64,000 nucleotides of DNA, from positions 50,509,087 to 50,573,086 of the forward strand of contig OX344762.1 in NCBI GenBank assembly GCA_947034895.1, written 5' to 3'. The position numbers and the translations under genes are program-made. This DNA is from Rhytidiadelphus loreus (Eukaryota; Streptophyta; Bryopsida; Hypnales; Hylocomiaceae). The notes below the pieces were generated by a model. That model saw nothing but the letters and a program-made list of their open reading frames with translations, searched no databases and was not told the origin of the DNA. Of the stretch, positions 6,571 to 61,470 are shown one piece after another; position 1 is the first letter of the stretch, and each line of letters starts with the position of its first letter.

Positions 6571-6829
6571 GTTGAGAAGATGGTCCAAGCTATTAACATT
6601 GATGAATGCATTGAGGAACTTGTCTCCTTTGACATTGCCAGATGTATTGGGGAAGTTATCTTCTTTGACATCACTTCATTTGAGTGGATGTTCCAACCTA
6701 TTGACATTGCCAAATGCATTGGGGAACTTGTCTTCTTTGACATCACTTGATTTGAGAGAATTTTTCCACCTATTGACATTGCCGGATGCATTGGAAAAAT
6801 TGATGGAAATGATATTAATATTGGTGTAA
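6571..6829 (+). pseudogene. Out-of-frame LRR remnant of the kinase-NLR gene
   Basis: Beyond the stop of the main frame, another frame (open from 6533) continues with about three more LRRs of the same family and ends at a stop near 6829. The switch lies at TTGTCTTTTTTTGACATC, where sibling repeats read TTGTCTTCTTTGACATC, so one extra base in a T-run explains it. The receptor was probably longer before this change. An assembly or homopolymer error is the alternative. Confidence 0.75.
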
Positions 6830-28200: not shown

Positions 28201-29749
28201 TGTGCATTAGAGAAAGAACTACCTCCGTCCATTTTTGTCATCATGATGCATTTGCCTATTCATTTGGTGGAGGAATTGTTCATGTGTGGTCCAGTGCACA
28301 CGCGATGGATGTATCCATTTGAGAGGTATATGAAAGGGTTGAAAAGTTTTGTAAAAAACAAAGCAAAACCAGAAGGGAGCATGGCATATGGGTATCTTAG
28401 AGAAGAGTCCATAGGTTTTTTAAATGAATATCTAGCAGAATATACTCCGACCACTAAGCGGGCATGGGATGATAAAGAAGACCCGGCAATGTACGATGAA
28501 ATACTTGAAGGTGGAAAGCGTGACCGCGCAATGTCAAGGGACTTCCAGAAACTGATTCATAGCTTTGTTTTGGATAACACTGAGCACATGGAGCCTTACC
28601 GAAGGTGTGTTTTAGTTTTATCTCATTTGAATTTGGGAAAGTCTATTAATGAAGCTACAGTTCACTGTATTTATTTGCTGAATAGAGTGCTCTATTATTG
28701 ACGAGTATGAAGTCACAAATAATTGTTAATTAAAGTGACTAAAATAGGAGTACATTTGAACAGTACTAGTACTTGAGCTTCCATTTTTTTAATTTGTCAG
28801 TTCGGTTATATTTCAAGGGTTGGGTTGTTGCAATATACTAACAAATAAAAATGTAGAATTTTGTAGGTCATATGCAGAGGCCTTGGAAGAACGAAACATT
28901 GGAAGAGAAATGTACAGATGGCAACAACGTCGAGGTGGACGACGAACAAGATTTGTATATCCTAGGGAGTTGCAGAGTCTACCAGAGTTTTCCATGTGGG
29001 TGTTGGAAGAGGTGCGTCGTCAGCAGCAAATGGGTATCATCGTGGATGCAGATGTGATAGACACTGCTAGGGGACCTCTAGAAGTAGCTGCTTCATACAA
29101 GTCAATGTATGCTTTTGGAAACCATTTTAGAGTTCAAAGTTCAGAGCGCTCTTTAAAAACATTTGACAGTGGAGTTGCTGCTACATTCCGACAAGTGTGT
29201 AGGAATGGAATTCGTGATACTCGTCAAATAGACGCAGACGTGGAGTATGTTGGACACATTGAAGAAATTTTGGAGCTCAACTACAGACGCCACTGCATAG
29301 TAGTGCTGGTATGTGATTTCGTGAAGGCAAATTACGTGGGAGAAAATGCAACAATTGTAAAGGATAGATGGGGCTTCACTTTGGCAAACTATGAAAAAAG
29401 GGCAGGTGTCATCAATCGGGACAGTTTTGCATTCCCCAGGCATTGTGAGCAAGTATTTTATTCTGATGCAAGAGAGGCACCAGGATGGAAAGTGGTTTTG
29501 AGGAAGGAAGTCAGGGGTAGAAGAGTGTTGCCAAATAGTGACGAAGAAGACATGGAGGGTGGACTCTTCAACATGGGTGATGATGAAGATTTCGAGGGTT
29601 TACGACTTGAGAGAGATGTTGGAGAGGGATTGGTGCATGTTGTAGCTACAGGTCATGATGTTGTCATGCCGGATGTTCCAGTACGTGGAAGTGGACGAAC
29701 TAGAAGTCGTCGGTTACACACAAACGAAAACAATGGGAATGGTCGTTGA
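25201..29749 (+). CDS. CACTA tnp2-type transposase
   Basis: Exons 25201-25473, 25748-27265, 27709-28604 and 28867-29749 join in phase to 1189 residues. The N-terminus has a CxCxxC knuckle (CGCEKC, near 57-62). Exon 2 has a second zinc-type motif (CCDCG...CPKCNK) and the Transposase_21 core: LSLDGVNPHS with Asp382, a YNLPP motif and an IPGPNSPTEE(T)IDIYLQPL region. Exon 3 starts with LLDPMHCEKNVCENLL and carries the DUF4218 segment (MHLPIHLVEEL...GPVHTRWMYPFE, from about 777). Exon 4 has the DUF4216-like region near 1000-1080. It cuts and pastes the element in which it lies. The stop is a TGA at 29,747-29,749, and the same frame stays open for another 115 codons, so the protein is probably truncated at its C-terminus. 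Exons upstream of 25,201 are possible. Confidence 0.9.
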
Positions 29750-37868: not shown

Positions 37869-38399
37869 CCTTCCTCGAGGTTGTTTGTGGTCCTCATTCT
37901 CTTGTTTCATTCTTGTTGTTGCTCTTGTCGTGCTACCGACACTTGTCGGAGCACTTTTTAAGCCAAGTTTTGGCTATTTTCTTCTATTTTCTTCTATTTT
38001 CTTCTATTCTCTTGTACTTTGAAGGTCCGGAGGGCCCCTTCAAAGCTTTCTTTTCTTTTCTTGTTTGAATTTGGAGGCTTTAAGCCCGAAAACTTTGCTT
38101 TTCAAGAGTTTAGGTGGAGGAAATCCCCTAACTCTAGTATTGTTTGTGTTAACTAACTTATTTCTTGAATTTGGAGGCTTCAAGCCCCAAAACTTTGATA
38201 TTTTGGGAGTTGTGGGAGTAGTTCCCAAACTCTAGTTGATTTTATTGTTCTTTTGGATACTAACCAACCATTTGTGTGAATTGAGAATAATTTGTGAACT
38301 TAAAACTTTAAAGTGGCAAGGCTAGACCTTGCCAAAAGGTTTTGAGCATCACCACGTGCCAAAACTCGTTGTATAACGGGTGTTTAGTTTGAATAATTG

Positions 38400-38438
38400 C
38401 TAATGTTCGGTTAAACACTGTCATGTGTACCTCTTTTA
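38400..38438 (+). repeat. Left copy of a 39-bp direct repeat
   Basis: It starts TAATGTTCGGTTAAACACTG and ends in CCTCTTTTA. The second copy lies at 53,909-53,947. Together they bracket the ParB-methyltransferase/SWIM element and abut the left inverted repeat. At 39 bp it is longer than any usual target duplication. Confidence 0.8.
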
Positions 38439-38510
38439 GGAGGAATGCTGGTATGTGAGCAGAGAGCGGGGAGCAGGGAGCGGGGAGCAGAAAAAAGTGA
38501 GCACAGAGCA

Positions 38511-40284
38511 GGGATTTTAGGGAAAAAAATCCCTCCTTAGTCCTGCTACTATGAAAAAGGGTACCTAAAACCGTGTAATCAATTTGTCTCAAAAAGTTTG
38601 AAATTGAATTTTTTAATCCAAATAGGACCTAAAGCCGTGGGATTTTAGAAGCTTAGACCTAATAGTTATATAGTGTAAGCATTATACTTATTAATTTTCA
38701 GACATTTAAAGCCTTCTACAAGAGTAGGGAGCAGATTTTGGAGAGCCAAAAATAGTGTATTATAGTTTAATTTATGAAATATGAGAGACCCTATTATCAT
38801 GTACTTGTCATTAGGATTTAATTTTTATACTAAAAGAACATGCATAACATTGGATTTAAAAAAATTAGGATAACTAAAAAAATGATGATTAATTGCTTTA
38901 GGAAAAGTAGAACATCTAATTCCTTGGTTTAGAGTCATTTAAATCTTACAATAGAAAAATGAAGTAGTTTCAAAGAGATTGAATGAAAAACTATAATAGT
39001 ACAATACCATCAAATAAATGATATATATAGTTTTGGCATGATATTGCAATTGTGAAGATTATAGGTAGTTGTGAAACATTTACAAACAAATCTTTTCTTT
39101 GAGAAAATGCATAGAAGAAGAAATTAACTGTAAACCACCCAAGGCCTAATCATGTAAAAAAAAACTTTTTTTTTTAGTGTGATAAGTCTAAATGTTAGCA
39201 AGGTATGAAAATCTCAATTGTACAATCTTATAGTGTGCATATTGATGATAATGTAAATCAAATTTGGGGTGATTTGACTGCACAAATTGGAAGATTATAA
39301 TATTTTAGTATTGGAAAAAAATGGTGAAGTTTTCCTAAAAACACATTCGGACGTCAAATTTAAACCTTGAACCTACTCAAATAAGGAAAAAAATGAACTA
39401 CATAGTGATTCAAAACTAGAATATAATCACATTGGTGAAAGAAAATATCACTCACTTGACTCATCTTATCTCCAATATTAGTTCAAAATGTCAAAAAAGA
39501 ATAAAAAAAGAACACAATATCACATCTTTGGCTGAACCTCTCTCTAGTAAAATGCTTCTCAGTTTTCCATAACTTCTTAGATTGTTATGAAATTCTTACC
39601 ACAAAAAGAAGACTAGTATGTGCAACTATTCCAACAAAAATGATTGAAAACGGACATTGTATAAAGAAGAAATAGGCGGCCAAAGTTCATTGTAACTAAA
39701 AAAATGACTGAATTTTAAACTTGAAATTGCTCCCAACCATTCAAAAGAACTTGGAGTGACATGAAAATTTTACCACAATAACTAGATCTGAAGGCAAACC
39801 AAACACAACAAATTTTATTGAAAACGGAGTTTGGAGGACAAAGATACAAGCCCTCAAAGTTGTAGCCTAAAAATATCGAGTGCTGAATTGAAACTGCACC
39901 TGTGAACTTTGATTGGCTCTTACAAACTGAATACAAGTTCAATCAATCTGAAAATTTAACCACAAAAACTAGACTAATATGCGCAACTTTTCCAACAAGT
40001 TTTACTGAATTTAAACATTGGATGCAAAAGTTATAGCACTTTAAATTAGATTGCTACATTGTGTGAGGACACTATAATTGGTCCTCGTGGGTGGTTTAGG
40101 GTTAAATACTCACAAAAAATAGAAGAAATAATACAATAAAATTTGTATGTCACTTAGATATATCATTCAAATTTGAGAGCATACAACTAATTGTGTGCAT
40201 AATAAATATATTAAAGCAAATGCTATAAAACTATCGAGCAATTTTGAGCCACAATAGTGAAATATATTGAAAAATGAAAACCAC
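38511..40284. other. AT-rich 3' flank of the ParB-methyltransferase gene
   Basis: No coding sequence was seen. The stretch 39,487-40,085 is the first copy of the 0.6-kb direct repeat described separately. Confidence 0.5.
39487..40085 (+). repeat. 0.6-kb direct repeat, copy 1 (3' flank)
   Basis: Almost identical over most of its length to 43,611-44,209, which lies in intron 4 of the neighbouring gene; the last 150 bp diverge more. An older third copy is at 13.19-13.39 kb. No coding capacity or terminal repeats were recognised. Confidence 0.9.
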
Positions 40285-43200
40285 TCAAAGATCATCACTA
40301 GAAGTTGAACCTTCAATTTCAAATTCCTCTCCTTCACTTGCCTCTATATCCAAGAACTTCTTTACCTTTGGATTGTATTGAAGTTTGCGTTGATTTGCTA
40401 TTGGTGATGGGGCGTCAATGTATGCTTGAGCAATCCTTTCTACATAAATTGGGAGATTGAAATTGAAAGGTGGACTTCGGTCATTTGCATCTTGCACTTG
40501 CTCTACTATAGCACTTCTACAAGACCAAAAAAAATTGGTCAAATACAATGTAGAAATCATTTAAGTATATACTCATAAAGTAAAAAATGGTGATAAACAA
40601 ATGAATCACAACTTACGCACAAGAAGTGAATCGATTCCTCTTTGGCTTCTTTGTCGGTGGCTGATCAGATGGTGGAGTAATGACTCTGCCCTTGCTTTTA
40701 GGAATAGAGGCTGTGATAGGGGCAAATGGAGCAATCATAGCCTTGAAAATGAGAGGATCATCTTCTAAAGCCAAGATGTGTCGTCCAGTCTCCAAACAAG
40801 CCTTGATGGATGAGCCTGTTAGAAAACAAAAGATATATGAATAAATCATGAAAATTGAGTTCTAAAGAATGATGAATAGAACTTAGATTTGTAGAAAAAA
40901 AAAATACATGTTGCAGCTTTGCAATCAAAGACAATATCTCCAGGCTTGCACAATTGTAGGATGAGATCTCGCATGAAGGGTAAGTTCTTCTCACGTGGAC
41001 CTCTCCATAGAACTTTCTCATTCATAGAGAGGTTTTCAATGTCCGTGAGATTGAATAGAGCATCGTTTTTCTCTAAAGGCTCACCATCATAAGAAGAGTC
41101 ACGATTTTCTTGGAATGAAAACCGTGAAGGAATCTCCCGTCGAATGAACAACTGAATCCAAAATCGAACAGACTGGAAACATTGAAAAGTTGAATATTAG
41201 AAAAAAAAATTGTATTTATAAAACCATAAATTCAATGCAAGCATATAGAATTAAATTCAACCATTCCTTCAAATCCTTACAAATGCTCAAAAACTATTTT
41301 GCAAATTCTTTGATTACCGTCAGTGATGGATCGCGTGCAGATGCAAGATGTAGCTCATTGATCCCCCACCAATCTTTGGCCAACTTCATGTCATATTGGT
41401 CGGCCAACTCATCAACTTCCTTTAGCAAACTGCGGTCATCGCAATGTATAAGTAGGAGGGCACCGTCATCATGCAAATACATATCAGCCATCTCAAAGAG
41501 AGTCTCAACGTAGTTCTCTGTGCGGGTGTTCCAGTCTGGAATCGAAGTTGAAATGCCTGGAACAGGAAGGTTCTCTGGAATGTCTGCAATGATCAAATCA
41601 AGCCCTGTATGCTTGTACTTCTTGCAAAAGTTGGATGTGACAGTACGGTTGCGAGAAGCGCTAATCTGTACATTTCATAATTATGAAGTTAGAATTAAAA
41701 CTTTCAAAACAATGGCATAGAAAGGAAAATGTTGGAATTAGGTTTAGAATAAGGTTTAGAATACAATACCTTAGCTATAGTATCGTGCAACCTTATCCAT
41801 CGAGGATCAGGGCCACTGGGATCTTGTAAACTATTCAAGAGAGTGATGAGAGAAGTGCACTCTACAAAGACATGAAGAGAGTGTTGAGGCTCTATCATAG
41901 AAGAACTAACTGAAGGAAACATGGACTGTTTCTTCTTGCGAATTTGGTTACCAATCCCATGATGAACATTGGATAAAGAGGAATCTGGAGCAAAGGTTGC
42001 AACGCCGTCATCATGACCTTGGTCTGACATGGGGGTAGTCTCATGACTATCTGAAGGCATGGCTACAAGCTCATTTGCTTGAGACTTCTCTCTTTCAGCT
42101 TCTTCTTTCTCTGCCTTCTCTTTTGCCACCCTCTCCATCTCTTCCTTCTCCGCCTTCTCTTTTGTCACCCTCTCCATCTCTTCTTTCTCCTTCTTTGTGA
42201 GTCGTTTTTTCTTCGGTGGCTTGTCTTGTGGTTGAGCTTCTTTGGGGTTTACTTCTTGTGCATCGTCAGGGTCAACAAGAGGAAGCTTTCCATCATCAAG
42301 AGTTGTCCTCTCAACAACCTCTGAATCGGGGGTGTAGTTCCGGTGACAATCAAGGTACCACCCTCCCGCTTCCAAATGTGTAGCTTTGAATTTCCTCAAT
42401 TGCTCAAATGTAAACATGCAAAGATCGGAGTCTTTTTGCAACCAAGAAAGGAAAAAGGGCGGTACAGCTTCAGCTGAAATTGCTTTTTTGGATAGTAAGA
42501 CTCGCATGAAGTACCTAAAGTAGAGGTGAAAAATGTTATATAATTAAAAAGTAGTTCATGAAACATAAAGAATAAAAACAAACAAAACATTTTCATCAAC
42601 TTTTGGAAGCAACGGTAACAAATAGGGACCAAAATATAATAAACAATAGAAACTAAATAATGAAAGACCAAAGCAATTACATAAGTGTAGTAGTTTGGAT
42701 GTATGGTATTGGTACCTGTATACAACGCGCCTCACTGCACTATCAGTTCCAGGGAACTCTTTGAATACAGATTTTTTGGTATAAAGCTTTTGATCTTTGT
42801 TTCCAAAGAATGGGATAAAAGCTTTGTCCCAAAGAAGAATGCGCCAACTCTCCACGTAATCAGAGGGTTTTTGAACACCTTGTATAGTCCAATCTACAAC
42901 AATGTTGTCGTCTTTGCAAATATTTGTAACCATCTTAACAACTGCCTCTTCCATCTGTTAAAATGAAATAGAGAATGTTTAAAACAAAATAAAATGAAAC
43001 CATGATAACTGTAAGAGACAAATTGATTGTTGGTCATAGTACAATACCTCAGCCCAAAATGATGCTTTGTTGATCCAAGAATCCCAAAAGAGATCCTTAT
43101 CTTTGGACCCAGGAAAACGATAAGATTGTCGAACAGTCAATGAAGATGCATTCCACCAACGTAACCACCGTGCCTTGTGCTTTGCTTCAACATTAGCAGT

Positions 43201-46200
43201 GGCAATTTTTTGAAGCTTCTCAATTGTCATTTCGGGAACTAGATTCTCGCTGAAATGACGGTCAATCTGAGCATACAAGAACATTTTTGTTAGATTGAAA
43301 GATAACAATCTCAAGATAAATTTAGAAATAGCAACTTTGACTAGGATAGGAATGAATTTATACCTCTTTCAAAAAATCGTTTCCATTCTTTGGATTTGCC
43401 ACCGTTAAGTATTTGTCAAAGTCTTTGGCATGAATGGCCTTGATGAACTTATCTGAGGCACTCTTCATTGCCTCCCAAATGCCTGTAGCAGTCCTTTCTT
43501 GGAGCGGTGTCTGCAATGTGTACTCTCGAGCTGCTTCATCGGCAGCCACTGCAATCTCCCGCTACAATTGAAAAAAAGAATGTCAAAGGAATTACAGATT
43601 TCATGTACAAAATGTCAAAAAACAATGAAAAAAGGATCACCATATCACATCTTTGGCTGAACCTCTCTCTAATAAAATGCTTCTCAGTTTTCCATAACTT
43701 CTTAGATTGTTATGAAATTCTTACCACAAAAAGAAGACTAGTATGTGCAACTATTCCAACAAAAATGATTGAAAACGGACATTGTATGAAGAAGAAATAG
43801 GCGGCCAAAGTTCATTGTAACTAAAAGAATGACTGAATTTTAAACTTGAAATTGCTCCCAACCATTCAAAAGAACTTGGAGTGACATGAAAATTTTACCA
43901 CAATAACTAGATCTGAAGGCAAACCAAACACAACAAATTTTATTGAAAACGGAGTTTGGAGGACAAAGATACAAGCCCTCAAAGTTGCAGCCTAAAAATG
44001 TCGAGTGCTGAATTGAAACTGCACCTGTGAACTTTGATTGGCTCTTACAAACTGAATACAAGTTCAATCAATCTGAAAATTTAACCACAAAAACTAGACT
44101 ATTATGCGCAGCTTTTCCAACTAGTTTTATTAAATTTGGACATTACATGCAAAAGTTACATGACTTTGAATTGGATTGCCAAACTATGTGAGGATACTTT
44201 CGGTCCCATTCGACAATAAAAGGTTTTGCAAGAAAAGCAAATTGAAAAGATGGTTGTACCTTATACAAGAAGGAGATGAAGACATTGACTGTCAAAGAAA
44301 ACCAACTTGGTCTCATCGCCTTCACTTTCTCACAGTATTGGTATTCGTCGGGTGAGATAAGGTCTTTGAAATCAGCAAGGGGTAGAACTCCAAAATTTCG
44401 AATTCGACGCAGTCGAGCTGGAATTGTGCTCTTCACATGATCATGTTCCGTAGACCTATACAATACATTTTTATGAGAATGAAATCAAAGTCAATGTCAA
44501 TGTCAATGTCAATGTCAATAAATTGATATTTAGATGCAATACGTATATATTAAAAGAAAACAACAAACTTACCAGTTGACATCGCTCATTGCATTTAGCA
44601 AGTTTGCCACTTGACCTCTTGGATCCAATATAATGCAATGGACTCGTTTGTGCCAGCCGAGTTCTCCATCATGACAGTTGGTGATGTGTCGCATCCATGC
44701 GGAGACACGATGATTCCCATCCCATACATAAAACATCTTACCTCTCAATTAGACAAGGTCAACATCTGCCATCAATTCCTTTTCAAATTCCTCATTGACA
44801 CGTTGCCAATGAGGACTCCACCTTGCAATTTCTTCCTCAGTCACATCCATAGTTTTCTCAAAATTGTTGTACAGTGAAACGTATAAAACCCGATCACCAT
44901 CTCGATAGCCGTTCATGAACTCGCTCTCCAATCTTTGAACATCCATTTCTCCAACTGGTCTAACCTCGTCCATTACAATCATTCGACAAAGAGGGATCTC
45001 AAGGCGTGACTTCGTAATAGGTTGGATGCGTAATGTGTTGATGAGTCCTGTAGTGTCCACCTTGAGTTGTTTGCGGTGGAGGTGCTCACTCTCCAAAACA
45101 CTCGTTACAGTAGGTGGAAATTTGTGCCTTGGCTCATCATCATCTTCAAGATCAATAGATGCAACCTTCAAAATAATAACACATGAAATTGAATTAGAAA
45201 AATTGAAGATAGGGTTGTGAAGGGAGAGAGTGATGTGCATGGAAGCTCTTTCTTTCAAAAACTGGACATACACAAAGTAATGGAAATTACATGAACTTCA
45301 AAAGTAGAAATTTCATTTACCTCAGTGATTGGTGGTGGAAAACTTTCTGTAAGCACAATTGGGGATATTCCATCTCTTCTTGTTTGTCTTGCAACAATCC
45401 TCTCAGCACTGTCCTCCTCATCATATATAATTTCAGTTTCGTTGTCTTCGTCCATCTGATTAGTTCAAATCATTCCAAAAAACATGACGTGAGTGCTGAA
45501 TTATTTGTAATGAAGACGAAACAAAATTTGGCTCACAACTATAACATACAATACAAATATTGTCATAATAGTAAAGACTAGGATTCCTCGTGAACAAGGA
45601 TTCACCATAGCCCTTTTTTTATTGAAGATCTAAACCATATCATATGACCAAAAACAAATTCATCAAGTATATTCATTGACAAGTAAACCCTAAAAGAGCT
45701 CAAAGTTCATTCTAACCCTAAACAAGAAAAGGTGTTAGGAAGTTATGAAATGACATCTATATTTAAAATTCAGCCTCAGTAGTCTAGTTTGTGAACACCC
45801 TCGTGAACGAGGACTACATTAGCTGCCGAAATTCTAAACCAAAATATTAGCATTGGTGCAAAGAAAGTGTATAAATCCTCCTTTAAAAGGACTTTGTTTA
45901 AAACGATACAACAATAACAGCATTTTCAATCAGATTCGAAACATCAGTAGGTTTTTCCTTAAAAAGGACTTTTTGAAATGGATATGTGTAATACAGCCTA
46001 CAAAATACAACATTTTTAAGTACACTAGGCGCAGCTTTTAGTATCCTCGTCAACGAGGACTCCCGAAAATGGTTGTATTCAATTCACCGCTCACAACATT
46101 TTTTACTACAGTAGGCGCAATTTTTAGTATCCTCGTCAACGAGGATACTCGAAAATGGTTGAATCCAACTCAAGAATCACTACATTTTCAACTATAATAG

Positions 46201-46458
46201 GCGCAGTTATTGGTATCCTCGTCAACGAGGACTCCCCGAAATGATTTAGAATAAGGCGCAGTTTTTGGCATCCTCGTCAACGAAGACTCTCGAAATCACA
46301 CTGCCACTTCTACTGTGATATTCAGCATTGTTCCTAAACTCCTAAACCAAAATTATGAAGGTAAAGACATGATTGTGAACCTCAATCTCTGGTTGAACAT
46401 CTTCTAGCGATTGGTGCGAAGCCATTGCCGAACACGCCGCAAACTCTCCTTCCTCCAT
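40285..46458 (-). pseudogene. ParB/sulfiredoxin-like domain fused to permuted N4/N6-type DNA methyltransferase domain (one in-frame stop)
   Basis: Twelve exons join in phase on the minus strand: 46458-46381, 45455-45321, 45165-44573, 44455-44260, 43561-43364, 43266-43048, 42954-42716, 42514-41770, 41665-41318, 41172-40908, 40815-40617 and 40516-40285 (1148 codons before the stop). Residues about 130-260 look like a ParB/Srx fold: IPLCRMIVMDEVRPVGEMD, later YVWDGNHRVSAW (219-224). A KKEKEE-rich segment follows in exon 8 (about 650-700). Exons 9-11 give a methyltransferase core in permuted order: motif IV LDLIIADIPEN (Asp829), LHDDGALLLIHC, then motif I PGDIVFDCKAATCSS (Asp1000) and ETGRHILALEDD. 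Canonical DPPY and GxG are not kept, so activity is doubtful. A TAA (44,749-44,751, codon 210) interrupts the ParB-like domain; no intron can remove it. An upstream exon at 47.17-47.63 kb probably belongs too. Confidence 0.75.
43611..44209 (+). repeat. 0.6-kb direct repeat, copy 2 (intron 4)
   Basis: It fills most of the 698-bp intron 4 of the ParB-methyltransferase gene and matches copy 1 at 39.5-40.1 kb, leaving only short native intron sequence at each side. Confidence 0.9.
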
Positions 46459-46512
46459 CTAGAACATGCGGCTACCACCAATCGTGAGCAAAAACAACAC
46501 CTCGTCGACGAG
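45585..46512. repeat. Array of CTCGTCAACGAG palindromes in the 5' introns
   Basis: Copies lie at 45,585-45,600 (imperfect), 45,799-45,812, 46,045-46,058, 46,131-46,144, 46,217-46,230, 46,272-46,285 (one mismatch) and 46,501-46,512 (CTCGTCGACGAG, perfect). The central ones share a context: a GGCGCAG(T/C)TTT-like lead, then TAT or CAT, the palindrome, and a CTC(C)CGAAA tail, at spacings of 86, 86 and 55 bp. All fall in intron 1 or just upstream of exon 1. Iterated palindromes usually mark binding sites of a dimeric protein. Confidence 0.85.
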
Positions 46513-47166
46513 CACTCACCCGACGCACCCAAACCCTAACCTCAACCGGTTCGCAAGACTAAGGAAGAAGAAGGAAAAAAAAGAAAAAAAAAAAAAGAGT
46601 ACAAAATCGGTAGATGCAGGTCAAGAGAATCTTTACAATAAGAATTCTGATTTTGAAGATTTAGGGTCAAAATTTTCAGATGACCTAGATTATAACCTTA
46701 CACTTAACCTCAATTTATTTCAGAATTTTTGGACTCACGGCTGATTTTATAAAAATCCTCAAAGTTGACAAAAAAGACGGAGGCCAAGATTTGCTCAAAA
46801 AATCTTCGGATTCTGAAGATTTCAGAGAAGATTCGAATATGCTGAATTCGTTTTGGGCCATAAAACATTCAATTAGTGTCCGTTTTGTACATGCTATATA
46901 CTGTTCGAATCGTCTTCTCAAACTGCATGATTAAGTTTAGGATGTCAAATTCAGATCTAACAAAAAACTATTCATATTCATTTAACGCACACTCTTCTAA
47001 TTCTATGGTCCATTCTTCTACAATTCTAAGCCCATACTAATATAGTTTTGCAGCCAATTAGAGAATGAGTACATAACCTTTGTATTTCCCAAAAAATACA
47101 TCTATATCTTATTTAAATTATTGACTGCAAATCATTAAATGGCATATGGTATACTTATGAACATAC

Positions 47167-47626
47167 CAAGTCTTCTCTATCCTGGTTAGGCTCTTCATTT
47201 GCATCTTCATTGTCATCCTCGCTTTCATCATCTTCTTTGCCATCTTGGTTGTCCTCGCTCTCATCGTCTTCTTTGCCATCTTGGTTGTCCTCGCTCTCAT
47301 CGTCTTCTTTGCCATCTTGGTTGCCCTCGTCTCTTTCAACCACAGACAATGGTTCTTCAATAATCTTAACGAGACATAATGAACGGTCACCAACAACGTC
47401 GTCCACTTCTTGGTCACCAAAATCAAGTGCCTTTGACGTTTCACCATAGCTATGTATACCTCTACTTACAATTTTTTCCCCTCTCATCTTAGCTCTTAAT
47501 CTTTCTTTGGGAGTTGTGTAATACAGTTTGCGTCTTCTTCTCTTCTTCTTTATCAGCCTACAAGTTGCAACCTGAGACTTAAGTACTTTGATTTCTTCAA
47601 GCATTTGATTTACTACACATACATCT
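47167..47626 (-). CDS. Probable upstream exon of the ParB-methyltransferase gene, acidic repeats
   Basis: The minus-strand open segment is bounded by an acceptor (CTATTTAG) and a donor (GACTTG/GTATG). It starts with a leucine-rich helix, then a KKKRRRRK cluster that fits a nuclear localisation signal, and ends in a very acidic tail with three tandem copies of NQDGKEDDESED (36-bp units). Its donor is phase 0 and the next exon, 46,458-46,381, is preceded by TTCTAG and is phase 0, so joining is natural. It could instead be a separate small gene. Confidence 0.5.
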
Positions 47627-47639
47627 CTAAATAGCAAGC

Positions 47640-48766
47640 ATTACAATAGCACCCTCTCTATCACCTCCAAACTATTTATCATTCTCCCTACTAACTTTAA
47701 AAACAGATCAAACAAGTATTGAGTCTACAAATACCTTGCTTAGCCATTTAAAACCTCAAATAAGTGACAACTTAGGTGCACTACCCTCACCCCTCACCCC
47801 TCACCCCTCACAAATCTTTAGTACTCTACAATCTCCCTTTGCAACAAGAATACATAACACATATCCAATGCCCAAGCTAATGCAACGCAAACTCAAACTT
47901 CTTACAGAACAATAGAAATAATACAATGCAGTTCTACAACTCTAATAAAGAAGACAAGCAAGAACCACTGACAAGAAGAGTTTAACATCTCTGGCAACGG
48001 TAAATGACAATTGTACTACTCAATACCTGATTCAAATTATGAAATCTAACAGATCTATTGTTGTAAATGCAATTTGTTGTATGAGTACTCTCCCTACCTT
48101 CTACTATAACGTAAACCTACAAGTTCAAGATTTGGCGCTTCTAGTACTAGTATACCTAAATATCAACATAAACAACAATTTTTCAAATAAATAAATGCCT
48201 ATACTTTCTACTGTTTCTTGTCCCTAATTCATACAAATGATGTCTGCTTCAACTATTGCTTGCTTTAAATGCTGGCTACTTCAAACAGAGATTGTGACAT
48301 GTACCAGATTTTATTAGGTTTCTTATTCCTAACTCATATTAATTATTAAATTCATTAGCAATAAATCTGCTTATTTTTGTACTTCATTAATTACTAATCT
48401 AGCTATCTTATTCACATTTCTCTTCATTTTAACAAATATGGTACTAATATATTTTATTGTCTATTATGTCATCATTATGTGTTTTTTGTTTGCTTGCCTT
48501 TCTTAATGAGGTTATTTGAAGACATTAATATTAATGATACTTCTTACACTCTTTGTCAGTATTCATCATTGTTATGCTTTTCAAACCATTTCCTAATCAT
48601 CATTCACTAAAGATGTAGTAAAAATACTTCATTCATTCTTCATCATACCTGCTCACTATATTTTTGTCTCGAACACAATATGCTTTTCCTTTTCAAAGCA
48701 ATTTTCTTCAGAGCAGTATGTACTAAAAGTAGAATGATGTTTTCATGAAACTTCAATTTCTGAGCG
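47640..48766. other. Divergent intergenic region
   Basis: About 1.1 kb of AT-rich sequence between the head-to-head ParB-methyltransferase and SWIM-transposase genes. A CCCTCACCCCTCACCCCTCA microsatellite lies near 47,790. It is expected to hold promoters for both genes, but none is clear enough to mark. Confidence 0.4.
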
Positions 48767-49239
48767 ATGGTAGACTTTGCAGGGATGGTTGTTGTGAGAG
48801 CGAATGGTGAAAGAGTTCCAATAACGTTTCTAGTGGGCGAAGATGGATTTGCTGTTGTATCCGCATTTCGGTTAAGTCTCAGGTTCCAATTAAACGAGGA
48901 CTCACTTCACATTGATAAAGAGGTATTTGATGAGCGTAGTGGAGATCTTACTCATACAATTGGTCAAGTCTCTACATCTGATGGTTCTGGTAGAATGTGG
49001 CATCTCAAGTCTGGTAAATTTAGGGTCTATGGATTACGAGAATCCATCATGGCACCTTCCTCGAGTGTTTTTACACCTCATCAGTCATCTACATCTTCTC
49101 TTCAAACACCTTTAGCCTGGCCTTTAGCATCGCAAATCAAAGTAGAGCCTGTTGTGAATGATGTCACCATTCTTAGTGACGACTCTGACGACAATTCTCC
49201 TGAGCAATTGCAAAGCGTAAAGACTTCTTGTTTGGAGTC

Positions 49240-49435
49240 AACTTTGCTGAGATCAAGTATTTTACAAGGCTCAAATACTTTGTTGAGCTCAAGTACTTTG
49301 CCGAGCTCAAGTACTTTCCCAAATTCGAGCACCTTGCCAAGCTCAAATACTTTACAAACCTCCGGTACATTGCCGAGCTTCGGTACATTGTCGAGCTTCA
49401 GTACTTTACCTAACTCAAGTACTTTACCAACCTCT
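49240..49435 (+). repeat. 18-bp coding minisatellite
   Basis: About ten degenerate copies of an 18-bp unit (for example TTGCCGAGCTCAAGTACT) encode SSTLP(S/N) hexapeptides in the transposase N-terminal region, probably an unstructured linker. Confidence 0.85.
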
Positions 49436-51284
49436 ACTGAACCGTTATCTGCCAGCCACTCTAGTGGTAGCAAATCCATTACATCTGTAATTGATTGTTT
49501 AAGAAATTTGCGTACATTGAAGGGTTGTAGAAATGTCTTGAAAAAAATTGATTATGACTCTATTACTATTCATAGAGTAAGCGTGTTACCTCCAATTTTT
49601 AATGGTGATGTCATTTTTGAGTTTCCACCACTCACTACCTCCACTGGTTCATCTCAAGCTAAACAAATGCTTGGGATGGATAAGCGGTATGATGGTCATG
49701 TCTGGTCAAAAACTATTACAACAAATATAACAAATCCCATGGGATTATCATTCCGCACATCTTCGTGCATAGGGCATCTTCAGTGCATTAATCCAGGCTG
49801 TGATTTTCTTAGTCGCATTCATCGAATCAAGCCTATCAATGAATTGGAATGGGAAGGATTCACACCGTCATTGTTGGAAGTGGGAAGTACACATCCTCGG
49901 GGCTCAACGCTTATTTGTAAAATGTGCAAGCAACCTCCGTCGTGTATTGCTACATGTTCTGCAAAAGTATATTACGTATTTGGAAAATACAACTTTACTC
50001 GTGCATTTGTACACCTTGGCATTCATGAACATCCTGTCAAAGATGGTGAGCTCAGAGATTTGAAGGAGAAAACTCGTATTCTTATTGGAGAACAGATGGA
50101 GAGAACACCAGTTGCAACAAACTCTTCAATTGTGTTAGAGGCTACAAAAGAGCTTGTGGGAGAACTATTGTTGCGTCCAGATGGCGTTCCGCTGAAGACC
50201 CTCAACATTCATGAACTGCTTCCAGTTCTTGACAAGTGCAAGTACTTCAGCTCTCCAAACATTCGAAATGAGGTAACTTCGTTCAAATACTTAAGGAGGT
50301 TTGGAGTTATGGATAGCATTACGAAATTGAGGGGGACAAGCACTTGGGCATTTGTTCAAGAGAATAAATTTCCAGGACAAGGGTCGGATATGGATAAAGT
50401 TTTTGTATTCAAAATGTCAGAAGTTGGACCTGGTAGTGGAGTGGACTTGGTCAAGCGAATGCAACCTGGCGGAGATCTTCAAGATGCTTGGTTGATGTTT
50501 GATCATGTCAAACGTGTTAAAGGTTGGACTACTATGGCATGTCATGTTTATGACTCCATGTATTGTCGCGTTATGACTATTGCTGTTTGTGATATGCAAT
50601 CGGAAGATTGCGCTACTTAAATTGTGTTTTGGAAAAACTTAAATTCAGTTCTTGCAAGACATGGTGTATCCCACCCTAAATTCAAGGGATTCATGGCTGA
50701 CACCGCTCAAGCCAATTGGAATGCTGTAAGGACAATTTATGGGTCAGGCGACACTAGTGTTCCAATGGAAAATCAAGAAAGGACTTGCCTCTTCCATTGG
50801 ACTCAATCAATGGAGAAACACACAAAAGCTGATATTCGATCCGACTTACAAGATCAACATCGTTTGCTATGCAAACAATACAAGAATGCTGTTTTCTCTG
50901 AAGAATTAGAAACTCGATATCTTGCCATTAAAGCTTGGTGGTTGTCATCTGGTGCCACAACTGAAGAAGGACTTCATCGATTAGAACTTTGGCTATCGTT
51001 TTGGCATTTCCGTTACCGCCAATGGGGAGGATTTCAGCAACTTGTAAGTATCTACTCTTCATCAATTGTACTTCAAACATCTATTTGTTTCAATAATAAA
51101 AGAATTCAAAATTTAATTTTATAATCATTACTAATCAATTTGACAATGTCAAATTGTAAATGGATGTATAGTATATATTCATTGTTGTTTTTATAATTGC
51201 TATAAATGATTCATCAGAGAGAGTATAGATGATTAGTATTCACAGTATTATTTATCAAGCATTTTGAATTAAATTAGAGACCAA

Positions 51285-51306
51285 GACCACTCGTCAACGA
51301 GTGGTC
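51285..51306. repeat. CTCGTCAACGAG palindrome in the SWIM-transposase intron
   Basis: The core is identical to the array at 45.6-46.5 kb, extended here by GACCA on the left and TGGTC on the right to a 22-bp palindrome. It lies in the only intron (51,044-51,626). Confidence 0.85.
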
Positions 51307-53090
51307 TGAGACTTCAGTTATTCTTTATTTTATTTGTGCAACCCCTAAACTAAATTGAAGCATATCTAGTCACTGCATTGGTAGCATTGCCATAACTTAA
51401 CTTCCTCCCCTAGTTCTTTTATAAAAAACCACATGAACTAGAGAGTAAGGTTATTTTCTTTATTATTGATGATGGAAAGTTTATGGTCTTTTCTTGTTTT
51501 ATTTTATAATTTCCTTCCTACCTAGATTATTAGTCATACTATGAGTATTAATAGCAATAATATTTTACTTACAACACATTTAAATTTTTTTATAACAAAG
51601 TTTGTATTTTTGCTTTTTCATTTCAGGATCTTAGTACATCTGAGCTTGCAGAAATGCCTTTCTGCAATCTAGCTGAAACTGTCCATAACAAGTGGCTTCA
51701 ACAATCTGGAAATCGTGGAAACGATTTGTACATTGCCACTGTTGACGACTATGTAAGAACCTTTATGCAAATGGTCAAGTATTATCAATACCTTAAAGGC
51801 AATGAGGCTGGAACAGGACCAGGAAAGGGAGAATTACTACTTCGAGTTGCTCAACGATCAGCTCAAAGATCAGGAAATCCAAAAGTGCTTACCGAAGCTA
51901 TGTCCAATATTCCAGAAGTGGAGGAGTTTCTTAATAGAGAGCCTCGTCTTGAAGGTGAGGAAGTGTTTGGATCGCAGAAACGCAAACCAGATATGCCATT
52001 GGGTTGTGAATATGATTCACACCGCCCAGACAAAGTGAATTTTTCTCATCCACATATGAGGTCAAAGAGAGCTTCTACAAGCACTCAAAACTTGAATCCT
52101 ATTGTTGAAGACATTTTTCCAAGTGTAGACAGAGAGATTGAAGATCCAATGGCAGTTGAGGACAATTCCAGGGAAGGTTTTACTCATAGAATTCCTCATG
52201 TCTCAGCAATTCAAGAGAGCAACTGTGACGAGTTTCAGTGGCACATTGCAAGGCTTCCCAAAACCTCAGCAAAGGCTTGTTTTGCCCTCCAAGCTATTTC
52301 AAAGAAGAAGTGTACAGCAAAGATTGTTCAAAACAACAAGGCCACAACAGCACCAACGTACACAGGTATGATGACCAATTACAAGAAAAATCGAAATGAA
52401 CAAATGCAATTTTTCTTTTGCAATGACGATATTGAACGTTGTGTGAAGGGGACCAATCGGAAGTGGGTATTGTCAAGACCTAATGTTCCTGCCATATGGC
52501 CTGTCAAAATGGGTACCAATTTGTCAAAGCAAGAAGTTTTGGCATTTGAAACAGTTGGCTTTCAACTTCCACAACGTGAAGTTATTTCACCTCGAAGACT
52601 GTTTGGTGGAGAAGCCGGGTTAGATTTGATCTCCTCATATCCTATTCCAGGTTTACCGGATGAGCATCCCCAAATTCGGTCAGGGAAAAGTATTCGTCGG
52701 AATCTAAAGGCACCAACAGTAAAACACGCAAACAATTGCGCATCTGCAATTACACTAAAAGCACGCATTCGTCGAGTAACAATGGTTCCTCACCCTGGAT
52801 TTGGTTGCATTGTTTGCCTTGATTCTGGATTAGAGCCAAAGATTGAGCAATATATGCTTACCATTTCATCATTTCCAGAGTGCTCGTATCCATATTTCAA
52901 AGAAATGACTATAAAGTCATTAGGCAAGCGAGGACAGTGGGCAAACTGTAAGCATCTCTATTTTATTTTCACTGTCATTTGTAACCTTCAATTAACAATA
53001 GATGCTTTCATTCATGCCCCAAGTTTAAGTTTCAATGAAGTCAAGAAGATCCTTCTCAGTGGGATATTGAATCATTTAGTTTTAGATTAG

Positions 53091-53900
53091 ATTTGTTATT
53101 GCAAAACAGTATCAACTTTTGTACCTTGTGTGCTCATCAATGAATATGTAGTGAGACTAAAAGGGCCACTACTTCCATTTCACTTTTGCTTGCACTTCTG
53201 GCATTCAGACTATTGAATGATTTCTCTTATCCTCATTTTACCTATTTTTTGCATTATAACTTATAATATTTTATCAAAAATATCATGTGTTTGTACCTTT
53301 TTTAAACCATTACAGTATATTAAATTTAATTTTTTTGTATTAAAAACAAGAACAGAAAAACTTTATTTTTTGGTTCAGGATTAGAATTCTCATTTCTTCT
53401 TTGCACAAAGTCTATATAGTCATCAATTCTAAAAATGTCCACGATAATAGGTCTATTTGAGATTAATTATATGGCATAAAAAATAAAAATAAACTCTAAA
53501 CTTTGACAGTCTTAAAACAATTTACTTTCACGGTCATAGGCATCGTAACAATAAAATTATAATTTTGAATGGTTTAAAGTGAAATGTTATTTGATTTTGA
53601 CCTTCTTTCATTCACTTCTAATATCCATTGTCCTTCATTATTGCATTCAGTTCCATCCATTTTTTCCATCTATTTTCATTCATTTTTCATCTACTTTCAT
53701 CCATTTTTTCCATCTATTTTCATCCATTTTCATCTACTCTCATCCTTTTTCATCCAACTTTATGTTTTTTCATCCTAAAACAATGCTCACCGCTCACAAC
53801 TTGCCGCTCCCCGCTCGTTGCTCCCCGCTCCCCGCTCACATACTAGCGACGTTGCCTCCTTTAGTGATTAAACTAGAACTTTGCTTTGAATTTTGGAAAT
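53091..53900. other. 3' flank of the transposase and right inverted repeat
   Basis: AT-rich sequence, then a pyrimidine-rich microsatellite of TTTTC/CATC units (53.64-53.77 kb), then the GC-rich inverted repeat units (53,780-53,863). No gene is present. Confidence 0.6.
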
Positions 53901-53908
53901 TAGTTTTT

Positions 53909-53947
53909 AATGTTCGGTTAAACACTGTCATGTGTACCTCCTTTAAG
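53909..53947 (+). repeat. Right copy of the 39-bp direct repeat
   Basis: Same orientation and nearly the same sequence as 38,400-38,438, ending in CCTCCTTTA. It lies 45 bp outside the right inverted repeat. Confidence 0.8.
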
Positions 53948-55260
53948 AATTAAGTTTTCAAAATACTAGTTTGGGTCCTTGGATACTGGTTATTCCTGGG
54001 GTTGCTCCCGCACGGTGGAGCTTTGACTTTGAAACCTGGAAACGGGTACTGGAAGCGTTAATTTGTCTGTTACTCCCTGGGGTTGCTCCCGCACGGCAGA
54101 GCTTTGACTTTATCAGGTTAAAATTTACCTTCGTGAAAAATACTAATTCTTGAATTGTCCCGCACGGCGAAGCTTTAACCTTTAAATTGCCATTTAAAAC
54201 TTAGAATTATCTCGGACAGCGAAGCTTTGGCTTAAAAACAAGAACCCGTGGGATAAAGATTCTTTTTGAAACATATTTAAAGTCCAAGTTACGTTGATTT
54301 ATTTCTCTTTTGCGTTGGACATGTGGTGAAGGTACTTTTGCTTCTAACTCGCCACTTGTTGCTTTAAATCCGATTTAATTACTAGTTTATCATTATTTGA
54401 ATTCCATAAAAATAGTTTCGCTTTGTTTCGCTTTCTCTCATTAGAATTAACAATCTTTTATTTTCTAAGTGTGATTTACTCAGGAAATTGCTGATATCTT
54501 TGTTGAAAGATTTAATTTTTATTCGAATTTCAGAGAAATTTCTGTTCCATAAGGTCCAGTGTTAGTCTCTTATTCAAAAATCCAGTAACCAGGGCCGTAG
54601 CAGCAATCACAAGGCCAGGTCGAATGAAGCAAGAGAACGGGATCGGGAACGTATCAGATCGGGAACCCCAGGGGAACGCCGGCAGCACTATCGAAGAAAA
54701 GGCAGGACGACCCGAAGGCATGAGGCTAGACGAGAAGGTGACTAATGGACGGGGAAGGCAGGACGACCCGAAGGCACGACCACCGACGAGAAGGCGGGAC
54801 GATCAGGAGGCAAGGCGACCGAAGGACTAGTCGCGACGCACCACGTGGAGCCAGCGATCGGCAACGTGGAGGCACGGTGGGACTGAAGGCCGACTGGGCA
54901 GCCAAGAGAGTGTCGGGGTAGGAGGAGTGTCATAAGCAGGGTCTGTCGACAGACAGGGCTGTTTGAACCAAGGCTCGTCCAGACCAAAAAACAACTTGCT
55001 TATTGAGCTCGGTTCTTCAAAACAAAAGGTAAGGCTAATTCAAAACTTTCAACTTTCATTATTGATAGTTGGACACACACTCAAATTTTGAGTGCCTTTG
55101 GAAAATTTCCCAAAGCTCTCATGCCCTTAATTATCCTTACAACACTAGATTGCCAAACTCCATTGCCAAAACTCAACTAACAACAACAACAAAATACCAA
55201 CAATTGGAAGAAGGAGAAGAATAAGAAGGAAGAAATTTGACACGTGAAGGAACTAGAAGA
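53948..55260 (+). mobile_element. LTR-retroelement-like leader (right part)
   Basis: Four related motifs (GTTGCTCCCGCACGGTGGAG and variants, each followed by AGCTTT) recur between 53,995 and 54,235. A GC-rich stretch at 54.60-54.95 kb has a repeated GGCAGGACGACCCGAAGGCA and is Arg/Gly/Glu-rich in several frames, like a retroelement gag start. No reverse transcriptase, integrase or second LTR is present. It may be the other half of the sequence at 36.4-38.4 kb. Confidence 0.35.
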
Positions 55261-56955: not shown

Positions 56956-59397
56956 TCACAGTCGGTCATGCCTACGTCCAACAAAGGGTGGATCCTCCGC
57001 AAACTCTTCTTGCATTGTACCATCCACCCGTTGTGTGTCTTCTGGTTCCTCCATGACCCTTGAAGCTGGCCAAAATCCATCTTTTAAGGTGTCATGCACT
57101 AGAAGAAGTTCATTAAGAGCAATTCTCACGCCCTTCCAATAATCTTTTATAGGGTCATTTTTCCGCCCAAAAGACCCACAGTCCTCATTGTTGGCCATTC
57201 TACTCCAGTGTGCAATGAAACCATCTAAACCCTTTTTGACCTCACCTAGTGATTTCATCTCTTGGGGAGCCAAAGGTCTAGGACTCCCGCTTGGCACTTT
57301 TGGACGCCCATCTTCAGTCTCCGACCATAAGCGAATTCCTCTGCTGTGTTGTGGCAACCAATCCTTGTCTGTACACAAGTTCTTGTACTCCATCAAGGGC
57401 CATCTACTTGAATCCATGTAGAACTTGAATTGCTGTGATGTAGAATGACCTTCTAAGAAGTCCCCACCTGTACCCAATAACCTTGCACAAATCACTTGAA
57501 ATCAGGAACTTCCTCGATAAAATGAGGAATGACAGGGTGGGTTTCACAATCCATGAAGGATTTCATGAGTTTAGGAAGTGTCGGGTAGTCTTTGCTCTTT
57601 AACATTGTGCTCCATCTACCAAAAAGAGCATCAATATCTTCATGAGTGTGTCCGACAATGAGGAAGTTAATGTATATTTCGCGGAAAATGCCTTTGAAAA
57701 CTAGGAGAGGGCAAAAAGCAAAAACCCAACGATTCTTGTTGTCCCCTGACGCATTGTCAAGCTGGAGAATCAATATTGGTGGCAAAGGCTTACAAGGGAT
57801 TGGTTCTGCAGGAAGAGGAAGGAGAGAATCCAAACAGATGTCAGAGCCCTCCAACATCGCTTGAGTTAAAGTGGATTAGCTCGTTTCTTTAGAAAATAAT
57901 GTTCACGATGAATTCTTTGGTTCTCCCTCTAGATCACACAACAACCTTGCAATGGATCCAACAATATGATTTGAGTCTGTTGGAAAAATGTCTAAGCCGT
58001 AGTGAGCATATCGAACATCGCCATAACCGTGAGCAATCATGCTTGTTATAGCCACATGCATTTTCATAAAAGAATTAGTTGCTTTCGTCTTGTGAGAGAA
58101 GTGAGGTGAAGCGGTCTTGGAATGATCCATTTTGTCATGGATGATGCATAGCATCTTTTCTGGAAATTCCTCAGATATTTGCCTAAAGCTGTAATAGAGT
58201 TCCCTATGGGTCTTTTGCCCACTAAGATGGGTAGTTAAAATTCTTGCCCACTTATCTTGTGCAATAGACAACGGAGTACAAGCACTCTTCAATTGCCTAT
58301 ACGTATCACACAGACCACATCTTGCAAAAGTGTCTCCACGAGCCTTTGCAGCATATTCAGAGAAAAAAGCATGGCGGATGTTGCTTAAGCCACTAGATGA
58401 AATTGGAGGCAAATTAAATGCAACATTAGCCTTGTTGATTTTTGGAAGTTGCTCACTCCAACGAAATGCTAACAGCAAAACCATAGCAGGGACTTTCTCC
58501 CCTGATTCCAATGTTTTCGATTTGTGTGGCATTTTGTCGGCTTCATCTACAATCAAAGTCCGAAGTGTAGTGGTAGCTTGTAGAGTCTGGCTACGAGGCT
58601 TCTTCAATCCCAAGTTCCCATGTGTCTCTGCTTCCTTGCCCTCTTTTGCCATGCGCTTGAACCTATAGAAGGTAGCTTTTGAAATCCCATGGATGGTCCA
58701 CCATGCAGTGAGACACACATCAATGTTTCTAAGAGTTATCCATTCCTTTCCAGCTAGGTCTTTATGCGTCTGCCTATGTGCTTCAAGAAGGCAAAGCTTG
58801 CGGACATACACTCCGACCACCTTTCATATGCAGTTGATACCGTATGGACTCAATTTCGTGACGTGGGAAATGTTGTGTGCAGTTCTTGTGGCAACATCAT
58901 GGTTTTGTGGACACTTCAATAATTGACTATGCAGTGAGAAGGGATTCTTTTTTAGAAGGCAGGACTTCGTCCCTTCTCTTACGAGAGGTTTCATAAGAAT
59001 GTACCCCTACTCGAACACGGCGGTTGAAAGCATTCATAGCCGTATTGTATTTATGTGTTTGGTCATGGTCATATAGGCTGATACCGTTCAGAAATACGTG
59101 TGTGATGTGCCAGGCCTTCATTGACCACATCCACCCTAAGGGGACTTCTGCCTCGTTCAATGACTCCGCAATTTGCACAGCGACACGATCATCACCCAAA
59201 GGCTTCCCATCATTTTCGATGACAAGATCCACGTCAACACTTTGGCAAACTCCTTTTGCAACGTCATCCCCTGCTTCGTTTCTAAGTGTGACACACTTTG
59301 TAATCCAGGATTGCCGAGGCAATCCCTCGCAGCCAACGACACTAGCAGGTAATATGGGCACTGGAACCGCAAACTCGTCAGGTCCATGAATATCCAT
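56956..59397 (-). pseudogene. Decayed DUF7869-type transposase-like gene
   Basis: Four minus-strand open blocks form one protein in order: 59397-58930, 58820-57903, 57857-57492 and 57495-56956. The second has a helix-turn-helix-like start (GISKATFYRFKRMAKEG), a zinc-type CGLCDTY and an acidic motif IIHDKMDHSK. The third has LQLDNASGDNKNRW and INFLIVGHTHEDIDALFGRW. The three Asp-bearing motifs fit an RNase H-like (DDE-type) fold, and the set is what I know from DUF7869 proteins, common in plant and animal repeats. Breaks: TGA at 58,824-58,826, TGA at 57,903-57,905, TAA at 57,876-57,878, and frame changes near 58.93 and 57.49 kb. The last block ends HDRL at a GTGAGT donor; the next exon is missing here. 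Confidence 0.65.
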
Positions 59398-60744: not shown

Positions 60745-60970
60745 CACTAGAAGAAACTCATGTTTTTTGTGACGAGTCCTGATTTTTTTTGACGCATTTT
60801 TTTTGATGTCTAAGTTGACATTTAGCTGTTTTTATGTTGTTCATGACATCCAAATGATCTAATGAACATCATTAAAAACATAAAAACAACTAAATGTCAA
60901 CTTAGACATCAAAAAAAATGCGTCACAAAAAATTAGGGCTCGTCACAAAAAACATGGGTTTTTTATAGTG
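60745..60970. mobile_element. CACTA-type MITE, 226 bp
   Basis: The ends read CACTAGAAGAAACTCATG and, reversed, CACTATAAAAAACCCATG. Flanks are TCT on both sides (60,742-60,744 and 60,971-60,973), a 3-bp target duplication. The whole element is a foldback with arms sharing TTTTTTGTGACGAG and ATGTCTAAGTTGACATTTAG. No coding capacity. It needs a CACTA transposase from elsewhere; its ends differ beyond CACTA from the 20.7-kb element. Confidence 0.9.
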
Positions 60971-61344: not shown

Positions 61345-61470
61345 GTTTGGGGTTTTAGGGTTTAGGATTTGGGATTTCAGGGTTCAGGATTCAGGATTTG
61401 GGATATTAGGATTTAGGGTTTGGAATATTAGGGTTTAGGGTTCGGAATTTTAGGGTTTCGGTTTGGAGTG
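61345..61470 (+). repeat. Degenerate telomere-like repeats
   Basis: Imperfect TTTAGGG/TTAGGGT units and variants (GGATTTGGGAT, GGGTTTAGGGTT) run for about 120 bp. This is the plant telomere repeat in an interstitial, decayed form. Confidence 0.75.

Follow-up and report, generated by a model that had tools for sequence, protein, structure and literature searches.

A spliced accessory gene with a permuted methyltransferase fold and a ParB-like motif region in a two-gene Mutator-type transposon of a plant-type genome

A spliced gene on the minus strand of the window, by which we mean the whole stretch of 64,000 nucleotides that was analysed, belongs to a Mutator-type DNA transposon with two genes, of which it is the second. 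This accessory gene is one half of the element, and a transposase gene, placed head-to-head with it, is the other half. The element measures about 15 kilobases, and the plant-type genome around it contains at least 27 copies. Judging from profile alignments, the C-terminal domain of the accessory protein has a permuted N4/N6-type methyltransferase fold. We tentatively propose a role of the protein in the recognition of its own element.

The element, its copies and its transposase

The transposon occupies positions 38440–53854 (15,415 bp, no strand assigned), as determined by alignment with genomic copies. Four copies for which both flanks had been fetched align with the window from 38436–38440 to 53854–53855, and the ends agree within 4 bp across these copies, which gives sharp boundaries. 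Target site duplications of 10 bp flank the element on the left (38430–38439) and on the right (53855–53864), with 9 of 10 bases equal. A 10-bp duplication was found in all five copies including the window, perfect in three and with one mismatch in two; this length lies within the 8–11 bp typical of Mutator-like elements (MULEs). Imperfect terminal inverted repeats (TIRs), as are also expected of a MULE, lie at 38440–38528 on the plus strand and at 53765–53854 on the minus strand. The local alignment of the left end with the reverse complement of the right end covers about 83 bp, starts 7 bp inside the end and scores 75, compared with a maximum of 32 in 200 shuffles. A 48-bp sequence, 90% identical between its two occurrences, is located at or just outside both ends (38394–38441 and 53901–53948), which suggests that the element landed beside or within an older repeat.

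A diagnostic 20-mer from exon 3 of the accessory gene occurs 28 times in the 407-Mb genome, the window included, and a control does not occur. Copy counts are based on this 20-mer and on the transposase search described below. We fetched 20 of the 27 other copies and left out seven. Over the shared parts, the fetched copies are about 93–99% identical to the window, and this identity extends well beyond the accessory gene. An earlier sequence-only reading had placed the gene in a eukaryotic mobile element, and the element ends, the 10-bp duplications and the 28 copies of the 20-mer bear this out. The element also contains a direct repeat on the plus strand, with one copy 3' of the accessory gene (39481–40073) and the other in its intron 4 (43605–44198). 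Three of the 20 copies (L016, L017 and L019) are devoid of the stretch between these repeats, including exons 5–12, perhaps as a result of recombination between them.

The transposase gene lies on the plus strand. Its first exon (48767–51043) encodes a GCM-like domain and an RNase H-like core and, in the window copy, has an in-frame stop at 50618–50620. By our own reading, a GT-AG intron (51044–51626) is followed by a second exon (51627–53090). The C-terminal Cys/His motif of this exon presumably resembles SWIM; it has no match in Pfam. For a structure model of residues 230–759, the best match was the IS256-family transposase of ISCth4, together with a GCM-like domain, and the Foldseek TM-scores were low (0.20 and 0.28). 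The predicted protein also differs from ISCth4 and from eukaryotic Mutator transposases in that none of the Pfam transposase models match it. Transposase_mut matches one of 44 aligned proteins, weakly (E 0.034), and a sequence search of the PDB with the transposase returned chance-level rows only. In the model, the protein is a transposase of the IS256/mudrA type with an RNase H fold, as expected of a MULE. Modelling agrees with the ends of the element, which we classify as a Mutator-type DNA transposon.

The rest of the window has a plant-type gene content, with NB-ARC, LRR and kinase genes and a CACTA-type transposase, and the genome is probably that of a land plant. An NLR-type cluster at 520–6794 comprises a protein kinase, an NB-ARC protein with a Roq1-like winged helix, and a long LRR array built on a 72-bp tandem repeat. 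At 25712–29749, Transposase_21 (E 1.5e-66) is followed by frames with DUF4218 and DUF4216, and we take this element to be of the CACTA type. Minus-strand frames at 56956–58820, one of them with DUF7869 (E 1.1e-32), perhaps represent another transposase-like gene. Two inverted repeat arms of 102 bp, 91% complementary and 22 bp apart, form a foldback or hairpin element at 60745–60970. Repeats of 7 bp of the TTTAGGA type at 61346–61466 are reminiscent of degenerate interstitial plant telomere repeats.

The accessory gene and the two halves of its product

The accessory gene extends over positions 40285–47604 of the minus strand and consists of 12 exons with 3,807 nt, or 1,269 codons including the final stop. 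In our independent minus-strand assembly, all 11 introns begin with GT and end with AG, and all exon phases fit, as the sequence-only reading of twelve in-phase exons had claimed. The ATG used here (47604) is 22 bp downstream of the start chosen in that reading (47626). Each splice site is kept in most of the 21 rows of an alignment of the window with the 20 fetched copies; the exon-9 donor coincides with a gap in the alignment and could be checked in the window only. Two alternatives, a series of open frames that line up by chance and an ordinary host gene in single copy, are refuted by the 12 in-phase GT-AG exons, their repetition across the genome (28 copies of the 20-mer) and a homologous gene in another element, and we regard both as virtually impossible.

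Exon 1 (47167–47604) encodes an acidic and basic low-complexity region. Its length differs by 36 nt among copies, and it has no match in the second family of elements, of which one locus was opened. Since intron 1 is long (1,711 bp) and the first codon of exon 2 is ATG, exon 1 is the least certain exon, and translation could start in exon 2 instead. Exons 2 (45321–45455), 4 (44260–44455) and 12 (40285–40516, the C-terminus) come from the spliced assembly and the 21-row alignment. Exons 5 (43364–43561), 6 (43048–43266), 7 (42716–42954) and 8 (41770–42514, including a charged linker) are supported by the same two sources and also by the second-family locus. The assembly, the reading of the aligned copies and hhalign support exon 9 (41318–41665, with the methyltransferase motif IV region), for which Pfam was used as well, exon 10 (40908–41172, WRGPREK and the start of motif I) and exon 11 (40617–40815, the end of motif I and the GRHILALEDD region). 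Two protein database searches with the spliced protein gave nothing at E 0.001, and none of the algal ParB-methyltransferase proteins discussed below came up in them. The database apparently contains mostly unspliced frames, so a 12-exon protein could escape such a search.

The N-terminal half was assessed in exon 3 (44573–45165), which carries the putative ParB-like domain. IPLCRM, RPVGEMD and WDGNHR were all found as previously described, and in the window copy an in-frame stop directly precedes WDGNHR. Between exon 3 and the corresponding exon of the second family, 36% of residues are identical, and IPLCR, RP, YVS and DGNHR are conserved. The ParB family PHROG 1033 matched the window copy around GNHR at E 0.09–0.2 and four of five other copies at E 0.041–0.046; the fifth copy had no ParB match, and neither had the second family. 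The sequence-only reading, which took the region for a ParB-like domain, had proposed profile searches and a comparison of the predicted fold. It turned out that Pfam ParB_N does not match this region in the window, in the other copies or in the second family. The hhalign score against phage ParB domains stays within the shuffled null, both with one family and with two. Searches of phage and plasmid sequences by tblastn, and of the PDB with five copies of exon 3, returned chance-level rows only. A single-sequence structure model of exon 3 reached a pLDDT of 31, which is too low for use, so it yields no fold to compare. The ParB identity thus comes down to motifs; these are suggestive, and we keep the name ParB-like as a lead.

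In the C-terminal half, Pfam N6_N4_Mtase aligned with residues 971–1145 at E 1.9e-4 (21.9 bits, below the gathering score of 26.7). PHROG methyltransferases matched at E 1.9e-5, and an NCBIfam methyltransferase model matched at E 0.058, below its cut-off. When the two plant families were compared by hhalign with six phage ParB-methyltransferase relatives, a probability of 93% and E 2.6e-7 were obtained over 196 columns. The score was 53.5, and the maximum among 60 column shuffles was 27.0. In this alignment DLIIADIPENLPV lies opposite MVFIDSPYNVKIQ, and motif I is matched to motif I. The window sequence alone gave 89% and E 2e-6 over the C-terminal 63 columns. A PDB sequence search with this half produced chance-level rows only, and the permuted fold is documented by profile, not by a structure model. 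Of the earlier suggestion that a mobile element had adopted a ParB-methyltransferase module, the mobile element and the permuted N4/N6-type methyltransferase fold hold, and the ParB part stays putative. Motif IV precedes motif I, as had been noted; this is the usual order in beta-class methyltransferases, so the order is not odd in itself.

Motif IV departs from the canonical form. Canonical motif IV is DPPY, and its aromatic residue holds the flipped base. In the accessory protein this motif is DIPE in 12 of the 13 readable rows and DILE in the remaining one, and in the second family (one locus) it is DVPE. The catalytic pattern [DNS]PP[YFW] is thus absent from both families examined. In 10 of 11 readable rows, motif I is DCKAATG or a slight variant of it; the window copy has a cysteine in place of the glycine, and the second family has DCTAATG, with the glycine kept. 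The domain is a methyltransferase by fold, and DIPE or DVPE in place of DPPY makes ordinary catalysis doubtful. The sequence-only reading had missed both this altered motif and the adjoining transposase.

Selection on the gene and a second family of elements

Of the 20 other copies, one keeps an unbroken frame across all 12 exons down to the final stop. Exactly one internal stop was found in 8 of the 21 rows, the window among them, and the remaining 12 rows show several stops, a shifted frame or a deletion. In exons 1 and 8, length differences come in multiples of three wherever the whole exon was matched; frame-breaking changes affect exon 7 in one copy and exon 9 in another. The analysis of variants excludes seven rows because of deletions, large indels or diverged ends. 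The majority sequence of the exons in the other 14 forms one open frame to the final stop. Variants private to one of these rows comprise 170 nonsynonymous changes, 56 synonymous changes and 17 stops. Their synonymous fraction (0.23) is close to the random expectation (0.26), and they look neutral. C-to-T and G-to-A changes make up 172 of the 243 private changes, an excess that would be expected of methylated DNA. Variants common to at least two rows comprise 30 nonsynonymous changes, 23 synonymous changes and no stops; their synonymous fraction of 0.43, compared with 0.29 expected, was reached in 6 of 200 simulations. This modest signal, based on 53 shared variants, suggests that source copies are under purifying selection and that their daughter copies decay neutrally. 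The evidence that the frame was held open in copies that transposed is weak but consistent.

A search with the transposase, in which 71 of 1,722 candidates were scored, yielded 27 loci that belong to this family, counting the window, and a further 44 whose transposase core is 69–73% identical to that of the window, as counted from the scored rows. The 44 loci may represent one or several families; where their N-terminal transposase parts matched, these were 44–51% identical. We opened one of the 44 loci. Its transposase is 72% identical over the core (residues 210–616) and 46% identical in the N-terminal part. Within the 10 kb upstream of this transposase we found the same accessory gene in divergent orientation, with exon matches at E 6e-47, 2.5e-34, 2e-14, 9e-11 and 9e-7. 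No nucleotide similarity between this locus and the window was detected by blastn at E 1e-5. The accessory gene is about 35–43% identical between the families in most of the matched parts, and the methyltransferase parts, joined by hand, share 100 of 232 residues. Compared with the transposase core, the accessory protein has diverged more quickly; given the 46% identity of the transposase N-terminal part, this holds against the core alone and not clearly against that part.

Palindromes, the proposed role and known systems

The palindrome CTCGTnnACGAG occurs in the element at six exact sites and two sites with one mismatch. In the other 48.6 kb of the window there are no exact sites and two with one mismatch, and, when mismatches of up to one base are allowed, 60 simulations of the element gave 0.15 sites on average and never more than 2. 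Every site in the element is intronic, either in accessory intron 1 or in the intron of the transposase gene; those in intron 1 would be upstream of the accessory gene were translation to begin in exon 2. Going along intron 1, there is a one-mismatch site at 45587, an exact one at 45800–45811, a group at 46046–46284 in or beside an 86-bp tandem repeat (exact at 46046, 46132 and 46218, one mismatch at 46273), and another exact one at 46501–46512. The exact site in the transposase intron is at 51290–51301. The spacer varies (GA, CA or CG) and the arms are constant. Among the fetched 10-kb copy pieces, 19 of 20 contain 3–8 exact sites, and one contains none. The second-family stretch has no exact copy of CTCGTnnACGAG; it contains CTCGGnnCCGAG four times, three of them evenly spaced in a repeat. 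Three of the six CTCGTnnACGAG sites also lie within one tandem repeat. The LRR repeats elsewhere in the window hold a palindrome family of equal size (six), and low-complexity sequence in the second-family stretch holds a further one of seven, so repeats inflate such counts.

By analogy with known systems, we propose that the accessory product may be a self-recognition factor against silencing, which would bind CTCGTnnACGAG without ordinary N4/N6 methylation. The N-terminal domain, ParB-like by motif, would bind the intronic palindromes of both genes, and the C-terminal domain, a methyltransferase by fold with a non-canonical motif IV, would contact DNA or S-adenosylmethionine. Such binding could keep the element expressed or unsilenced, as VANC does for VANDAL transposons. 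This reading, to which we give somewhat less than an even chance, is favoured by the enrichment of the palindrome in the element, by CTCGGnnCCGAG in the second family, by selection on shared variants and by the retention of the gene in a diverged element. It is also favoured by the stronger divergence of the accessory gene relative to the transposase core, which recalls VANC: this protein binds a short motif, co-evolves with it via tandem repeats and has a much more conserved transposase partner, as described in PMC5735166. An unproven ParB fold, binding that is itself a proposal, the inflation of palindrome counts by repeats, one opened locus of 44 and a set of 53 shared variants weaken it. 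A wider version, which we consider unlikely, is that in two lineages a retired methyltransferase has been combined with a parS-type binding domain, each with its own co-evolving palindrome (CTCGTnnACGAG and CTCGGnnCCGAG) repeated in non-coding parts of the element. This would be a eukaryotic counterpart of ParB-parS, acting in self-recognition against silencing.

The main rival is an active N4/N6 DNA methyltransferase that marks its own element, either to escape silencing by cytosine methylation or to time transposition. The permuted fold and the glycine kept in motif I of most rows and of the second family speak for it, as does the fact that a ParB-methyltransferase fusion gave the lowest E-value among the phage records listed. 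In PMC12477816, proteins of this kind are likewise suggested to bind the transposon that encodes them and to modify it epigenetically. However, motif IV is DIPE, DILE or DVPE and not DPPY, and the aromatic residue that would hold the base is gone; we find this explanation rather improbable, although it ranks next after self-recognition. It is still less probable that the product is a transposition cofactor, namely an end-binding or synapsis protein comparable to MURB of MuDR, and not an anti-silencing factor. ParB-type proteins pair DNA sites, and the divergent two-gene layout is kept in the second-family element that was opened, but the palindromes lie in mid-element introns and not at the TIRs. 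MULEs capture genes, and the accessory gene could have been taken from the host or from a bacterium and be no more than a functionless passenger of the Pack-MULE type. Acquired reading frames are mentioned for MULEs in PMC6446971, and of the 21 rows, 20 have a disrupted frame when read as 12 exons. Against this, the shared variants contain no stops and an excess of synonymous changes, and a second element, strongly diverged, still has the gene, which makes a passenger highly improbable.

The accessory gene and its element can be set beside several known systems. For the methyltransferase half, the best match among the phage records listed came from a gut phage contig, MT839917, where an unannotated frame of 444 aa at 2197–3531 carries Pfam ParB_N followed by N6_N4_Mtase. 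This fusion had the lowest E-value (2e-5) among the 60 listed of 261 phage records, and its neighbours are, as we take it, recombinase-like and terminase-like frames. The methyltransferase halves of the fusion and the element align at E 1e-10 in a single BLASTP comparison, and the ParB halves have no detectable alignment. Unlike the accessory gene, the fusion is unspliced and has the canonical-looking motifs DSPY and DAFLGSGTT.

In eukaryotes, ParB-methyltransferase accessory genes have already been reported in algal transposons, according to PMC12477816. There, Sola1-1_Ec32 of Ectocarpus encodes an accessory protein that is likewise ParB-like with an N4/N6 methyltransferase, with 1,104 aa as compared with 1,122 aa here counted from exon 2. 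As in the window and the second-family locus, that gene lies inside a large DNA transposon on the strand opposite the transposase. By description, Sola1-1_Ec32 is a 21.5-kb element of the Sola1 family in a brown alga, whereas the present one is a 15.4-kb Mutator-type element in a plant-type genome. The literature matches listed (titles and abstract starts, with subscription papers mostly outside) included no ParB-methyltransferase gene in a land plant or in a Mutator-type element. As far as these matches show, the kind of gene is already known, and what is new is its place in a Mutator-type element of a plant-type genome, the motif IV change shared by both families and the family-specific palindromes. 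Bacterial-type N4/N6 methyltransferases in plant nuclei are contested. The altered signature in both families examined is a warning against taking a methyltransferase domain in a transposon as proof of a new DNA mark. Here the module belongs to one particular element, young and repeated, for which a defined partner transposase and a candidate binding site can be named; the role of such modules thereby becomes open to direct testing.

VANC of the Arabidopsis VANDAL elements is likewise the second gene of a Mutator-type transposon. It has DUF1985/DUF287 domains, unlike the gene described here, and is an anti-silencing factor, a role that we propose here by analogy. To our knowledge, VANC has no methyltransferase or ParB-like domain. 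According to PMC5735166, VANC recognises a short motif that has accumulated through tandem repeats and with which it evolves, and the transposase partner (VANA) is much more conserved than VANC. If the palindrome is indeed the target of the accessory protein, self-recognition would have been solved twice, by unrelated means, once with VANC in VANDAL and once with the gene described here.
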